The notes beneath the pieces were generated by a model. It did not search any database. It was not told the DNA's origin and saw nothing but the letters and a program-made list of their open reading frames with translations. The position numbers and the translations under genes were made by a program. 59,438 bases of DNA, from assembly GCA_009841435.1 (NCBI GenBank), contig VXLW01000016.1, positions 4,717 through 64,154 on the forward strand, read 5' to 3'. Shown piece after piece: positions 23,371 through 40,727 of the stretch (within the stretch, counting starts at the first letter, position 1; every line of letters starts with the position of its first letter). This DNA comes from Dehalococcoidia bacterium (GTDB lineage: Bacteria; Chloroflexota; Dehalococcoidia; Tepidiformales; Tepidiformaceae).

Positions 23371-23717
23371 AGGATCAGTCTCCTCTCTGCATGCCGACAG
23401 CAAGCGGGTAGGTCTGGGCCTAGCCCGCGCTTGCGTCGATGTGGAAGCGGATGCCCATCCCGTAAGGCACCGGCTTGCTGCTGTCTGTATCGCGGTGATT
23501 CGCATCGGGAGAGACCACAGGCGTACCCACTTGGGCAGTGTATTCGGTTCAAGAGTTTGTCCATGGATCGATGCTGGCGCGTGTAGGACGCCGCCAGGCC
23601 GAGTGTCCGGCAATGCCGGGGTGAACTCCTCCGAAAAAACGACGGGAGAACACCAGTGCGCCCGAGTCCGCTACGATGGGATCACCACGCACTCCCCCCG
23701 CCAAGGAACGGCAACCG

Positions 23718-25391
23718 ATGTCCGACCAGCACCAAGACCCCACCCCCGTCGCGCTCTACGCGCGCGTCTCCAGCGACCGCCAGGATGTCGACCTCTCCGT
23801 CGCCGCCCAGCTGCGGGCGCTGCGCGACTACGCCGACAAGAGCGGCTACGTCGTCACCCGCGAGTACGTCGACGAGGCGGAGAGCGGACGCGTCGCCGAC
23901 CGCCCCCAGTTCCGGCTGATGCTCGACGCCGCGACCGCGGACGACGCCCCCTTCGAGGAGATCCTGGTGTGGAAGTTCAGCCGCTTCACCCGCAAGCGTG
24001 AGCACGCCGTCGCCTTCAAGTCGATGCTCAGGAGACGCGGCGTGCGCGTCGTCTCCATCACCGAGCACGCCGACGACTCTCCCACCGGCAAGCTCATGGA
24101 GGCGATCATCGAGAGCGTCGATGAGTTCTACAGCGCCAATCTTGCCGAAGAAGTGACGCGCGGCATGCGCGAGGCGGCCTCTCGGGGCTTCTGGGTCTCC
24201 ACCTTCGCGCCTTACGGCTACCGCAAGGTGAAGGTGCAGGACGGCGCCAAGGAGCGCCCCAAGCTGGAGCTCGACCCGCCGGCCGACGCCGTGGTACGGC
24301 GCATCTTCCAGATGGCGCTCAAGGGACACAGCGTGCTCGACATCGTGCGCACCCTCAACGACGAGGGCATCCCCACCCGCAACGGCGGCAGGTGGTTGAA
24401 GAACACGGTGCACGGCATGCTCGGCAACGAGGCCTACATGGGCACCCTCGTCTGGGGGAAGCGCAGCAAGGGCAAGGCCCCGCCCGTGCGCGTCGAGGGG
24501 GCGGTGCCGGCGATCCTGAGCGCCGAGGAGTTCGCGCGCGTGCAGGAGTTGCTGCGCTCGCGCGCGCCGAAGGTGGAGCACCCGAGACGCGTCTCCAGCC
24601 CCTACTTGCTGAGCGGGCTCGTGCGCTGCGAGAGCTGCGGCCGCAACCTCACCGCCGCCGAGGCGAAGAGCGGCAAGTACGCCTACTACGTCTGCCAGTC
24701 GCTGCTCAAGCGCGGCAAGGAGGCCTGCGTCACGCCCAGGCTCAACGCGCGGCGCTTCGAGGAGACGATCCTCTCCCAGCTCCGCGACCACATCCTCACC
24801 GAGTCGAACATCCGCGACCTCGTGCGGCTGCTCGACGAGGAGATGGACGGGGTGGCGCGCGAGCAGCGCGAGAAGCTTGAGCACATCGAGGCGGAGCTGG
24901 AGGAGGTGCGGCGCAAGCTGGCCCGCGTCTGGCAGGTGGTGGAGAACACAGACCTCGAGCTGGCCGACGCCTCGGAGCGCATCAAGGAGCACCGCGAGCG
25001 CCAGCGGCAGTTGGAGGTGGCGGCGGACGAGGCGCGGGCCATGCTGGCCGAGCGGCGCGTGCTGCTGGACTCGGCGGAGACGGTGGCAGCGTTCGCGGCC
25101 GAGATGAGCGAGTTCCTGCGGACCAGTGAGATCACCGAGACGCGGGCGTTCGTGCGGTCGTTCGTGAAGGCGATCCTGGTGCGGCCCGGGCGGGCCACGA
25201 TCCACTACACGATGCCGACCCCGCCCGACGGTCCCCTCGGGGGCGCCGACGCAGCAGAGGTCGCCCTCTCGGGCCGAGTTATGAGTTCGGTACGTGCTGG
25301 TGGAGCTGGGGGGATTCGAACCCCCTACCTTTTGACTGCCAGTCAAACGCTCTCCCAATTGAGCTACAGCCCCACGGGAGCGCGATCGTAG
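23718..25391 (+). CDS. Large serine recombinase (integrase)
   Basis: 557 aa site-specific recombinase. The catalytic N-terminus is intact: YARVSSDRQD with the nucleophilic Ser, then VWKFSRFTRKRE with the second arginine pair. The Recombinase domain follows (PYGYRKVKVQD, LNDEGIPTRNGGRWLKNTVH), then the zinc ribbon (CESCGRNLTAAEAKSGKYAY through YVCQSLL) and a coiled coil (residues ~385-460). I start at ATG 23718; the open frame extends to 23676. The last ~35 codons run antisense through tRNA-Ala at 25298-25373, giving an artificial tail (GAGGIRTPYLLTASQT). That suggests the integration site lies in or beside the tRNA. The 347 bp upstream (23371-23717) hold no gene. Confidence 0.9.
   Translation: MSDQHQDPTPVALYARVSSDRQDVDLSVAAQLRALRDYADKSGYVVTREYVDEAESGRVADRPQFRLMLDAATADDAPFEEILVWKFSRFTRKREHAVAFKSMLRRRGVRVVSITEHADDSPTGKLMEAIIESVDEFYSANLAEEVTRGMREAASRGFWVSTFAPYGYRKVKVQDGAKERPKLELDPPADAVVRRIFQMALKGHSVLDIVRTLNDEGIPTRNGGRWLKNTVHGMLGNEAYMGTLVWGKRSKGKAPPVRVEGAVPAILSAEEFARVQELLRSRAPKVEHPRRVSSPYLLSGLVRCESCGRNLTAAEAKSGKYAYYVCQSLLKRGKEACVTPRLNARRFEETILSQLRDHILTESNIRDLVRLLDEEMDGVAREQREKLEHIEAELEEVRRKLARVWQVVENTDLELADASERIKEHRERQRQLEVAADEARAMLAERRVLLDSAETVAAFAAEMSEFLRTSEITETRAFVRSFVKAILVRPGRATIHYTMPTPPDGPLGGADAAEVALSGRVMSSVRAGGAGGIRTPYLLTASQTLSQLSYSPTGARS
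25298..25373 (-). tRNA. tRNA-Ala (GGC anticodon)
   Basis: The minus strand folds as a complete tRNA: acceptor GGGGCTG pairs with CAGCTCC, the D-arm is GCTC...GAGC, the anticodon stem/loop is TTTGA-CTGGCAG-TCAAA (anticodon GGC), the T-arm is GGGGG-TTCGAAT-CCCCC, and an encoded CCA follows discriminator A. It lies entirely inside the 3' end of the serine integrase frame, on the opposite strand. Confidence 0.95.
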
Positions 25392-37660: not shown

Positions 37661-37788
37661 GCGCCGGGGTGGTCGCGGCCCGGGGAACATAAACGTGCGG
37701 GGGCGAGACAGATTCCCCGGGGAGGGTCGAAACGCCGTTTACTGGCCATCCGGCGCCGCCTACGCTTGTCGCTAGGGTTAGCCTCCGA

Positions 37789-38490
37789 ATGCCACAGGTC
37801 GCAGACCTCGCCTCACTCCAGGAATACGACGACATCCTCGCCGGATTGACCGCCGAACTGGAAGAGGCGCGAGCGGACCTCGAAGACGACGAAGCGTTGC
37901 AGGCCGCGCAGACCGCCGCCACCGAGGCGGACGAGCGCTGCGCATCCCTGGAACGCGAGCAGCGCCGGTTGGAGGGCGAGATCGACACCCTCGTGGCCAG
38001 AGTCGAGCGCGAGGAGAAGCGGCTCTACGACGGCTCCATCAAGCTGCCGAAGGAACTGGAGGGCATCCAGAAGGAAGTCGCCTCGCTGCGGTCGCGCCTC
38101 TCCGACGTGGAGGACACCGAGCTGGCGCTTCTGGACAGGCTGGAGGAGGCGGAGGGGGCACGCGACTCGGCACGGGACGCGCTGGCGCAGGAGGAGACAG
38201 CCTCGAAGGAGAAGCACGAGCGCGTGGGTGGCGACATCACGCGGCTGGAGGGGCGAATCGAGGCGACGACCGGGGAGCGCGACGCCTGCAAGGCGAGACT
38301 GACGGCGACCCTGGTGGCGCAGTACGAGGACCTGCGGCGGCGGAAGGGCGGGGTGGCGGTGACGCACCTGCGGGCGGGAGCCTGCACCGGCTGCCGCGTG
38401 AGCGTGCCGCCCTCGGCGCGCAAGCGGGCGCTCGACCCGGAAGCGCCGGCGCTCTGTCCCAACTGCGAACGGATCCTAGTGGGGTACTAG
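37789..38490 (+). CDS. Coiled-coil Zn-ribbon protein (CT398/DUF164-like)
   Basis: 233 aa. Residues 1-~190 are a long helical hairpin rich in Glu, Lys and Arg (AELEEARADLEDDEALQAAQ and onward). The C-terminus is a four-Cys zinc ribbon (ACTGCRVSVPPSARKRALDP then CPNCERILVGY). The CT398 family is widespread and poorly understood, proposed to bind nucleic acids or act near membrane systems. Its stop is 4 nt before the ATG of the dead recombinase, then RNase HI overlaps that gene, so these three probably share a transcript. ATG 37789 starts at the conserved QVADLASLQEYD. Confidence 0.85.
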   Translation: MPQVADLASLQEYDDILAGLTAELEEARADLEDDEALQAAQTAATEADERCASLEREQRRLEGEIDTLVARVEREEKRLYDGSIKLPKELEGIQKEVASLRSRLSDVEDTELALLDRLEEAEGARDSARDALAQEETASKEKHERVGGDITRLEGRIEATTGERDACKARLTATLVAQYEDLRRRKGGVAVTHLRAGACTGCRVSVPPSARKRALDPEAPALCPNCERILVGY

Positions 38491-38494
38491 GGCG

Positions 38495-39910
38495 ATGAAG
38501 GCGATCGGGTACTTCGTCGAGGGAGCGCAGCTCAACGGAGCGGAGCGTTCGCTGAGCCAGCAGACGGAGCAGTTCCTGGCCTTCTGCCAGGAGCACGGCT
38601 ACCAGGTGGCGGCGACGTTCGTCGACACGAAAGACGCGGAGGAGGCCGACAGCGGTTTCCGGCAGATGCTCAACTTCATCGAGCGGGGCGATCACGGGTT
38701 CGTGGTGGCGGTGGTGGACGGGCTGGGGGTGCTGGGAAGCGACCTCGGGCGGGCGGCGCTCAAGATGCTCACGATCGAGGGAGCGGGGGCGACGGTGTAC
38801 GAGGCGGGGAGTGGGGAGGAGGCGGCACGGTCGATCGTGGAGCAGTGGGGCGGGCGCACGGCGCGCGCGCCCGTCTCTGAGCGGGTGCGGGCGGCGATGC
38901 GGAGGCGGGCGGTGCGGGGCGAGGCGCTGGGGCGGCCCCCCTACGGCTACTGCGTGGGGGCGAAGCGTCGCCTGGAGATCGTTCCCGACGAGGCCGTGGT
39001 GGTGCAGTACATCTTCCGGCTCTACCTGGAGGAGGGACTGGGGATCCGGCGCGTCGCCGGGCGGCTGAACGAGGAGGGCATCCCCACGCGCCGGGGCGGG
39101 CGCTGGAGCATGGTGAGCGTGCGCGACATCCTGCGGAACCGGGCCTACCTGGGGACGTACTCCCGCTTCGGCGTACGCATCCCCGACAGCCACCGCGCCC
39201 TCGTGAGCCCCTCGGATTTCCGCAAGGTGCAGGAGAACATGGCGAAGCGCCGCCGGGGTGGCACGGGACGATCGCTGCACCCGTTCCTGCTCAGCGGGCT
39301 CGTGTTCTGCGGGCGCTGCGGCAACCGCATGATCGGGGTGAGCCGCCGCCAGCACTGGACGACTCGCGCGGGCGAGGAGCGCAAAGCCACGTACCGCTAC
39401 TACCAGTGCGAAAGCCGCACCAACCAGAACACCTGCTCCTACAACACGCAGCGCGAGGCAGAGTTGGAGACGCGCGTGCGCGAGATGCTGGCGGAGCCGA
39501 ACGGGACGGCCACGCGCCTGCAGCGGGCGGGCGGCGCCGACGCCTACGCGGAGGAGATTGCAACGGAGATCGAGCGGATCGAAGGGCGGCTGCGCCAGAA
39601 CCGGCGGCAGGTGGAGGCGCTGGTGGGGGAGGCGGCGAGCGGGCAGCTCCCGGTGGAGCGCATGAAGGCGATCGGGGCGGGCCTCGCGAAGGACCAGCGC
39701 GAGCTGGTGCGGGAGGTGGATGAGGCGAAGGCGCGCCTCGCGGCCGAGCGCTCCGAGGCAGAGCGGGAGGAGCAGGCGGAGGCAACCTGCAAGCGGCTGT
39801 TGACGCGCTGGGACGACCTCAACCTCGAGGAGCGGCAGGCGCTCCTGCGCGAGGTGATCGACCGGATCGAGGTCGACGGCGACGACGCACGCCTGCTGAG
39901 GCGGCACTGA
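38495..39910 (+). CDS. Catalytically dead large serine recombinase homologue
   Basis: 471 aa with full large-serine-recombinase architecture but no active site. The usual Y-x-R-V-S is YFVEGA (Arg to Val, nucleophilic Ser to Gly), and the usual L-D-R-L-S-R is VVDGLGVLG (both arginines lost). The DNA-binding parts look intact: Recombinase domain GRPPYGYCVG and EEGIPTRRGGRWSMVSVRDI, zinc ribbon CGRCGNRMIGV...YYQCES...CSY, and a coiled coil from ~350. It begins 4 nt after the Zn-ribbon gene, and its stop overlaps the RNase HI start (TGATG), with base composition like the neighbours. It looks domesticated: a DNA-binding protein kept without strand exchange. Compare the active integrase at 23718. 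Confidence 0.86.
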   Translation: MKAIGYFVEGAQLNGAERSLSQQTEQFLAFCQEHGYQVAATFVDTKDAEEADSGFRQMLNFIERGDHGFVVAVVDGLGVLGSDLGRAALKMLTIEGAGATVYEAGSGEEAARSIVEQWGGRTARAPVSERVRAAMRRRAVRGEALGRPPYGYCVGAKRRLEIVPDEAVVVQYIFRLYLEEGLGIRRVAGRLNEEGIPTRRGGRWSMVSVRDILRNRAYLGTYSRFGVRIPDSHRALVSPSDFRKVQENMAKRRRGGTGRSLHPFLLSGLVFCGRCGNRMIGVSRRQHWTTRAGEERKATYRYYQCESRTNQNTCSYNTQREAELETRVREMLAEPNGTATRLQRAGGADAYAEEIATEIERIEGRLRQNRRQVEALVGEAASGQLPVERMKAIGAGLAKDQRELVREVDEAKARLAAERSEAEREEQAEATCKRLLTRWDDLNLEERQALLREVIDRIEVDGDDARLLRRH

Positions 39911-40314
39911 TGCGCCTCGTCGTGTACGCCGACGGCGCCAGCCGCGGCAATCCCGGGCCGGCCGCCATCGGCGCGAGCGTGCAGAGCGCCGGCGGCGACG
40001 AGCTAACGTCGGTCAGCGACACGATCGGGCGGACGACGAACAACGTGGCCGAATACCGGGCCGCCATCGCGGGCGTGCGCGCGGCGCACGACCTGGGCGC
40101 GACGAGCATCGACCTGAGGCTCGACAGCGAGCTCATCGTGAAGCAGCTGGCCGGGCGTTACCGGGTGAAGAACGCGGCGTTGCGGCCCCTGTTCGCGGCG
40201 CTGGTGGAGGCGCTGGAGGCGGTGGGGCCGTACACGGTGGGGCACGTTCCGCGGGCAAAGAACAAGCGCGCGGACGCGCTGGCGAACGAGGCGCTGGACC
40301 GGGCTCGTCGCTAG
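39910..40314 (+). CDS. Ribonuclease HI family protein
   Basis: 134 aa RNase H-fold nuclease that cuts RNA in RNA:DNA hybrids. The catalytic acids are Asp in VVYADGASRGNPGPAAIGA, Glu in TTNNVAEYRAAI, Asp in LRLDSELIVKQLAGRYRVKN, and Asp in AKNKRADALANEAL. It matches the short bacterial/plant-type RNase H branch more than E. coli RnhA. It overlaps the dead recombinase stop by one base and precedes rnpB. Confidence 0.9.
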   Translation: MRLVVYADGASRGNPGPAAIGASVQSAGGDELTSVSDTIGRTTNNVAEYRAAIAGVRAAHDLGATSIDLRLDSELIVKQLAGRYRVKNAALRPLFAALVEALEAVGPYTVGHVPRAKNKRADALANEALDRARR

Positions 40315-40351: not shown

Positions 40352-40727
40352 GCGATCAGTGGGCCGGGCGATCGCGCCGGGACGTTCGCGTTTCGGTGAG
40401 GAAAGTCCGGACTCCGCCGGGCAAGGGTGCCAGGTAACGCCTGGGCGGCGCGAGCCGACGGAAAGTGCAACAGAAACATACCGCCCGCAGTGCTGCGGGT
40501 AAGGGTGAAATGGTGCGGTAAGAGCGCACCGGTGTTCTGGAGACAGGGCAGCCGTGCAAACCCCACCCGGAGCAAGGCCGAATAGGGGAGAAGGGCGCCC
40601 GGCCCGTTCGAACTCCCGGGTAGGCCGCGTGAGCGTCGCAGCGATGGGGCGCCCAGATAGATGATCGCCGCCATCCGGCTGACCCACCGGAGGGCACAGA
40701 ATCCGGCTTACAGGCCCGCTGATCACC
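40352..40727 (+). ncRNA. rnpB: RNase P RNA (type A)
   Basis: Catalytic RNA that trims tRNA 5' leaders. The universal blocks are present in order: GAGGAAAGTCCGGACTC (CR I), ACAGAAACATACCGCC, AAGGGTGAAATGGTG, AGATAGATGATCGCC and ACAGAATCCGGCTTACAGG. The ends pair (GATCAGTGGGCC near 40354 with GGCCCGCTGATC near 40724), which sets the limits to within a few bases. Confidence 0.95.

Follow-up and report, generated by a model that had tools for sequence, protein, structure and literature searches.

Why should a bacterial operon of housekeeping genes keep an integrase that has lost its active site? The question is raised by an open frame at 38495..39910 of a 59,438-nt stretch (the window) of contig VXLW01000016.1, from a Dehalococcoidia bacterium of the family Tepidiformaceae (assembly GCA_009841435.1). 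The frame encodes a catalytically dead large serine recombinase (LSR), and the genes that flank it on both sides are housekeeping genes. Sequence comparisons establish the catalytic loss, its age and purifying selection on the gene, and we favour, at a probability of roughly two in three, the reading that this is an anciently domesticated integrase that is now a site-specific DNA-binding protein of the cell. The parts of the gene referred to below are:

38495..39910, + strand: catalytically dead LSR, ATG start, 471 amino acids, open frame
38510..38524, + strand: YFVEG in place of YxRVS (residues 6-10), the nucleophile Ser replaced by Gly10 and Arg8 by Val8
38726..38740, + strand: GVLGS in place of DRLSR (residues 78-82), both arginines gone in the alignment
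38876..39496, + strand: DNA-binding half (residues 128-334), comprising the end of alpha-E, the recombinase domain and the zinc domain
39107..39142, + strand: DNA-reading helix (residues 205-216), alpha-H by homology, mapped onto the A118-type integrase structure
39335..39448, + strand: zinc-domain hairpin and 3-10 turn (residues 281-318), with zinc ligands Cys305 and Cys314
39497..39805, + strand: coiled coil (residues 335-437), predicted fold kept, sequence free

A lost active site and a kept DNA-binding half

In the window protein Pfam recognises the Recombinase domain PF07508 (residues 164-252, 4e-21) and Zn_ribbon_recom PF13408 (residues 265-332, 2e-12), and gives no match to Resolvase, PF00239. 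All 43 relatives examined have the first two domains, and 19 of them still match PF00239, which marks the N-terminal domain as a worn resolvase domain. The remaining two zinc ligands are Cys272 and Cys275, and 25 of the 26 columns that are invariant among the 43 relatives fall in the DNA-binding half. The first-pass annotation, made from the letters of the window, had described a recombinase without its active-site motifs and with intact DNA-binding and zinc regions, and that description holds. It had also read DRLSR as replaced by DGLGVLG: the loss of the arginines stands, while the exact match does not, the alignment pairing DRLSR with residues 78-82 (GVLGS) of 'DGLGVLGS'. A further arginine, in the R45 column, is not kept either (the numbers R8, S10, R45, R68 and R71 are those of gamma-delta resolvase).

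The loss extends to every family member examined. Among 90 dead proteins, none of the five catalytic residues is kept in 41, one in 33, two in 14 and three in 2, and of nineteen further dead loci 11 retain none and 8 retain one; an intact set was found at none of the 109 dead loci, the maximum being three residues of five. These counts include the identical L011 and L012, the duplicates L034-L041, L161, L179 and the window copy having been dropped. A serine stands at the nucleophile column in 5 of the 90, versus 97 of 99 active LSRs; the full set of five is likewise present in 97 of the 99, the other two lacking the start of the domain. The active set consists of 18 genomic LSRs, found with the dead protein or PF07508 as query (the genomic fragment L126 was left out), and 81 LSRs from IMG/VR; since these phage LSRs were gathered by N-terminal patterns, one of which contains R68, their R68 count and catalytic-domain identity are biased upward. 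In the relic catalytic domain we also noted Cys31 (38585-38587), which all 90 aligned dead proteins have vs 3 of 19 active ones, and which seems by eye to be lost in the degenerate members L168 and L169.

A recently broken integrase in neutral decay would by itself fit the loss of the active site, and we give that explanation almost no credence: the loss is common to all 109 loci examined and is therefore not the decay of one copy, dN/dS within the genus is 0.15 (below), and no internal stop was found in any of the matches listed by the protein search. The first-pass annotation had named two outcomes that would speak for a recent broken insertion, namely an intact homologue at the same position and a dN/dS near 1. 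The 109 loci hold no such homologue, and the ratio is far from 1.

How widely is the dead gene distributed? A protein search (E<=1e-30) finds a match, nearly always single, in 192 of 393 sampled Dehalococcoidia genomes, and a profile search in 211 of 393 at E<=1e-50 and 189 of 393 at E<=1e-70. Of the 22 genomes between the last two thresholds only some were examined individually, and the weaker matches examined were either ordinary LSRs (e.g. G013, G049, G097 and G134) or members of the dead family (G257, G384). A sample of 400 genomes from across the phylum, which includes members of the class, gave no match better than 8e-64 outside the class. The window's own family contains two genomes without a match; their completeness is 85% and 78%, and rnpB was likewise not found in them. 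Phage and plasmid records hold no match covering 80% of the window protein, and viral relatives of the dead family number 0 among 54 and 13 pattern matches.

The operon around the gene

The neighbours of the dead LSR in the window are:

37686..37715, no strand assigned: promoter-like element between yceD and the CT398 gene, conserved in the genus, single genome copy
37789..38490 (stop included), + strand: gene for a CT398-like coiled-coil/zinc-ribbon protein (Pfam)
39910..40314, + strand: RNase HI gene rnhA, directly after the dead LSR
40356..40726, + strand: rnpB, RNase P RNA class A (290 bits)

The coordinates confirm the arrangement that had been reported at first pass: 4 nt separate the stop of the CT398-like gene from the start of the dead LSR, whose TGA stop (39908-39910) shares 1 nt with the ATG of rnhA, and rnhA sits between it and the nearby rnpB. 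Elsewhere in the window, an LSR with a YARVS motif at 23676-25391 (+), whose frame crosses a tRNA-Ala(GGC) gene at 25298-25373 (-), may belong to an element integrated at that tRNA gene.

Across the family, CT398 lies upstream on the same strand at 96 of 109 dead loci vs 0 of 19 ordinary LSR loci; the 13 dead loci without it belong to family codes f2 (ten), f61, f7 and f54 (one each). The gap between the two genes is a few nucleotides in most loci with fixed starts and up to 236 nt in some, and translation of the dead LSR may be coupled to that of CT398. RNase HI is found downstream at 47 loci (very weakly at L016) and rnpB at 69, in 68 of them downstream on the same strand; at 26 loci without detected RNase HI, the rnpB match starts 30-148 nt downstream of the dead gene. 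Some loci have short flanks. Others, such as L042-L044, show neither rnhA nor rnpB within 3 kb, so the linkage of the dead gene to these two is not universal, and at the ten f2 loci neither CT398 nor RNase HI was detected beside it. A yceD-like gene, named by eye, stands directly upstream on the other strand at L094 and about 1.2 kb away at L098. At L168 (f7) and L169 (f54), where the N-terminal domain is hard to recognise and the DNA-binding half is kept, the neighbour on the other strand resembles an RNA methyltransferase by eye.

We compared these loci with genomes lacking a strong match, 30 of which were picked and 25 gave rnpB. In 17 of these 25 rnpB loci CT398 precedes rnpB on the same strand; CT398, rnhA and rnpB are contiguous in 11 of the 17, including three genomes of another class (all f116), and no recombinase was seen in any of the 25. 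The ancestral order was therefore probably CT398-rnhA-rnpB, with the recombinase as an insertion. RNase P class A RNA was not found in G014, G503 and G510 (97%, 92% and 96% complete), whose RNase P RNA may be divergent or belong to another class.

This order bears on the suggestion, made at first pass, of a nucleoid or R-loop role. In its explicit form the DNA-binding half would now bind RNA-DNA hybrids or RNA and work with RNase HI and CT398, which the operon in the window, with rnpB and its genes for RNase HI and a zinc-ribbon protein, might suggest. However, the linkage of these genes appears to predate the dead gene, RNase HI follows it at only 47 of the 109 loci, neither partner was detected at the ten f2 loci, and the segments that are conserved are those that read duplex DNA in the solved integrase. 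The data thus lend the suggestion no support, and we regard an RNA or R-loop role as improbable.

Vertical inheritance predicts that distances within the dead family track those of its neighbour CT398, and the two distance matrices do correlate. The Mantel correlation is 0.72 over 84 loci, the best of 500 permutations reaching 0.16, and the position beside CT398 is kept at all but the 13 loci named above: the gene behaves as one inherited vertically at a fixed cellular locus. On a tree of the DNA-binding half, which is weakly supported, the dead label needs two changes.

Selection on the DNA-reading segments

For the genus we used nine sequences, of whose 36 pairs 28 have dS under 1.5. The nine include L011 from the f2-coded genome G349, which encodes the same protein as the genus member G251. 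(The protein of G349, listed as L011 and L161, thus matches that of a genome with another family code, f2 vs f1; a mis-binned contig is possible.) The dN/dS of the dead gene is 0.153 overall, and by part 0.092 for the recombinase domain, 0.077 for the zinc domain, 0.153 for the relic catalytic domain and 0.265 for the coiled coil; the neighbours give 0.230 (CT398) and 0.139 (rnhA). Class-wide, the median pairwise identity is 0.58 for the DNA-binding half, 0.33 for the catalytic domain and 0.33 for CT398.

A sharper comparison is obtained by binning dead and active pairs by equal identity in the core of the recombinase domain. The segments were named from the structure of an A118-type integrase on DNA (PMC3783163), in which the zinc-domain hairpin and 3-10 turn read the major groove, and were mapped through the zinc cysteines. 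In the core bin 0.3-0.4 (84 dead and 1083 active pairs), identities for dead vs active pairs are 0.51 vs 0.36 for the helix, 0.44 vs 0.13 for the hairpin (whose length differs between the groups, which may depress the active value), 0.49 vs 0.25 for the turn and 0.20 vs 0.46 for the catalytic domain. With genomic LSRs only (84 and 34 pairs) the corresponding values are 0.51 vs 0.34, 0.44 vs 0.24, 0.49 vs 0.17 and 0.20 vs 0.30. Wherever a bin contains pairs of both kinds, the catalytic domain is the less conserved in the dead family. Conserved reading segments point to the binding of a single conserved site, and favour one specific DNA sequence over general binding of the nucleoid. The broader claim made at first pass, of a domesticated, dead protein probably retained for DNA binding, is accordingly in good agreement with the absence of intact copies, the low dN/dS and this pattern of conservation.

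The same pattern speaks on a further alternative, a dominant-negative or immunity factor that poisons incoming serine integrases through mixed dimers or blocked att sites. The predicted fold is that of active integrases, and a dead subunit could conceivably poison a dimer. Nevertheless we hold this to be highly improbable: active LSRs conserve the DNA-reading segments less than the dead family does, genomes that carry the dead gene also carry several further PF07508 genes (for example six each besides it in G216 and G233), and the dead LSR matches no PADLOC defence family.

Putative DNA target, proposed mechanism and known systems

Where might such a site be? With one locus taken per family, words enriched upstream of CT398 are promoter words only, e.g. 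TATAATCC, and those enriched downstream belong to rnpB; an operator beside the operon was rejected as a candidate on these grounds. In the genus, the element at 37686-37715 reads (G/A)ACATAA-N8-GGGCGAGACAGATTC and occurs once in the genome at up to 3 mismatches; among 96 upstream regions its two core words co-occur in genus sequences only. It looks like a divergent promoter. Replacement of the RNase P protein was rejected, since rnpA (PF00825) was found in 35 of 40 relatives, the window's genome among them, and so was a link to ParB, found in 13 of 40 families with the gene vs 13 of 59 without (Fisher p 0.26; families tallied by hand, 99 assumed). HU (PF00216) is present in 13 of 40 relatives, in no pattern that tracks the dead gene.

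One alternative is a local regulator, which would bind beside its own operon and control expression of yceD, CT398, rnhA or rnpB, for example the supply of RNase P RNA. Its conserved operon position, the unique genus element, and the 26 loci with rnpB 30-148 nt downstream, four of which are f2 loci without CT398 (L096, L163, L171, L176), would all suit such a role. It is nonetheless unlikely, given that the CT398-rnhA-rnpB linkage seems older than the insertion, that across the class no upstream word apart from the promoter is conserved, that 40 of 109 loci have no rnpB match, some with a 3-kb flank (L042-L044), and that L168 and L169 adjoin other genes.

Besides the sampling of phage LSRs described above, several points weigh against a domesticated site-specific binder. 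No class-wide operator was found upstream of the operon (31 upstream regions, 36 loci, one locus per family). Presence is patchy, in about half of the sampled class, so the function must be dispensable in some lineages. On the CT398 tree, which is weakly supported, presence and absence of the dead gene need 8 changes, consistent with a gene gained early and lost later in places. On the tree built from the DNA-binding half, a long branch inside the dead group carries four LSRs of other classes (L151, L152, L154, L156), and L182 falls beside the group with the fragment L126; a single origin is therefore likely and not proven. Where the active site of the four is readable (L151, L154 and, in part, L156), the catalytic residues are kept. 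The excess conservation of the DNA-reading segments shrinks in closer pairs: in the core bin 0.6-0.7 the values for dead vs active pairs are 0.82 vs 0.75 (helix), 0.59 vs 0.42 (hairpin) and 0.69 vs 0.69 (turn), the active helix also exceeds its own core there (0.75 vs 0.64), and the dead-family hairpin is slightly under core identity at 0.5-0.7. A synonymous-site test on 32 family sequences was borderline (maximum 0.170, codons 201-217, vs a permutation 95% point of 0.165); we rejected it as evidence of constraint, taking the signal as codon preference at conserved residues. Finally, the AlphaFold2 model of the window protein, which compared with solved LSRs has their fold including a resolvase-type N-terminal domain, was predicted from an alignment whose rows included active LSRs, which favours that fold and makes the model not fully independent; a model from nine close sequences alone had a pLDDT of 48 and was not used.

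The favoured reading, a domesticated integrase that binds one site, can be put as a simple sequence of steps. An intact phage-type large serine integrase gene would have entered the ancestral operon between CT398 and rnhA early in the history of the class, lost its active site and stayed under purifying selection as a cellular protein. Its product would still bind duplex DNA, one recombinase and zinc domain per half-site, paired via the relic catalytic domain and alpha-E, and would read one conserved chromosomal sequence without cutting it. A protein that binds and cannot cut may act there as a stable regulatory or architectural factor. By analogy with active integrases we would expect it to form dimers, and two bound complexes could be bridged through the kept coiled coil. 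The more ambitious proposal of a class-wide bridging or insulating factor, in which a locked integrase dimer sits on one site and two complexes are paired by their coiled coils, is doubtful; if true, synapsis, a step in site-specific recombination, would here have become permanent, as a DNA loop or boundary.

How does the family compare with known systems? Like the active LSRs (SPbeta YokA, the A118/LI integrase, phiC31, Bxb1) it has, in the same order, a resolvase-type domain, PF07508, PF13408 and a coiled coil, with the same predicted fold. Unlike them it lacks the serine nucleophile and the full set of catalytic arginines, is usually single in its genome and placed in a fixed operon, and has more conserved DNA-reading segments and a less conserved catalytic domain. 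The only NCBIfam matches of the dead LSR are XisF (77.1 bits vs a cut-off of 375) and CcrA, CcrB and CcrC (far under cut-off). Vaccinia virus F16 is a serine recombinase predicted to be catalytically inactive (Senkevich 2011, cited by PMC11980589), and so another that seems to be kept without catalysis; F16 belongs to an animal virus, whereas the dead LSR belongs to bacterial chromosomes, and the comparison covers the catalytic loss. Cells also recruit active serine recombinases, e.g. for Hin inversion (PMC8987985). The dead LSR too is a mobile recombinase apparently recruited by the cell, but Hin cuts and rejoins DNA, and in the dead LSR the catalytic residues are lost.

In the literature on inactive, degenerate or domesticated serine recombinases we found only the poxvirus case and no bacterial one, and nothing that pairs recombinases with Dehalococcoidia or Chloroflexi/Chloroflexota; in both searches most subscription journals lay outside coverage. 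Since co-option of active enzymes and vaccinia F16 are known, and no bacterial dead case was found, exaptation as such is known and that of an LSR across a bacterial class appears new.

Serine integrases are usually studied as enzymes of mobile DNA, and here one appears to be a vertically inherited cellular protein. The family amounts to an experiment run by nature that can show what an integrase needs when DNA binding is its only task. It provides a set of integrase DNA-binding modules that do not cut, and a testable route to a putative conserved chromosomal site.
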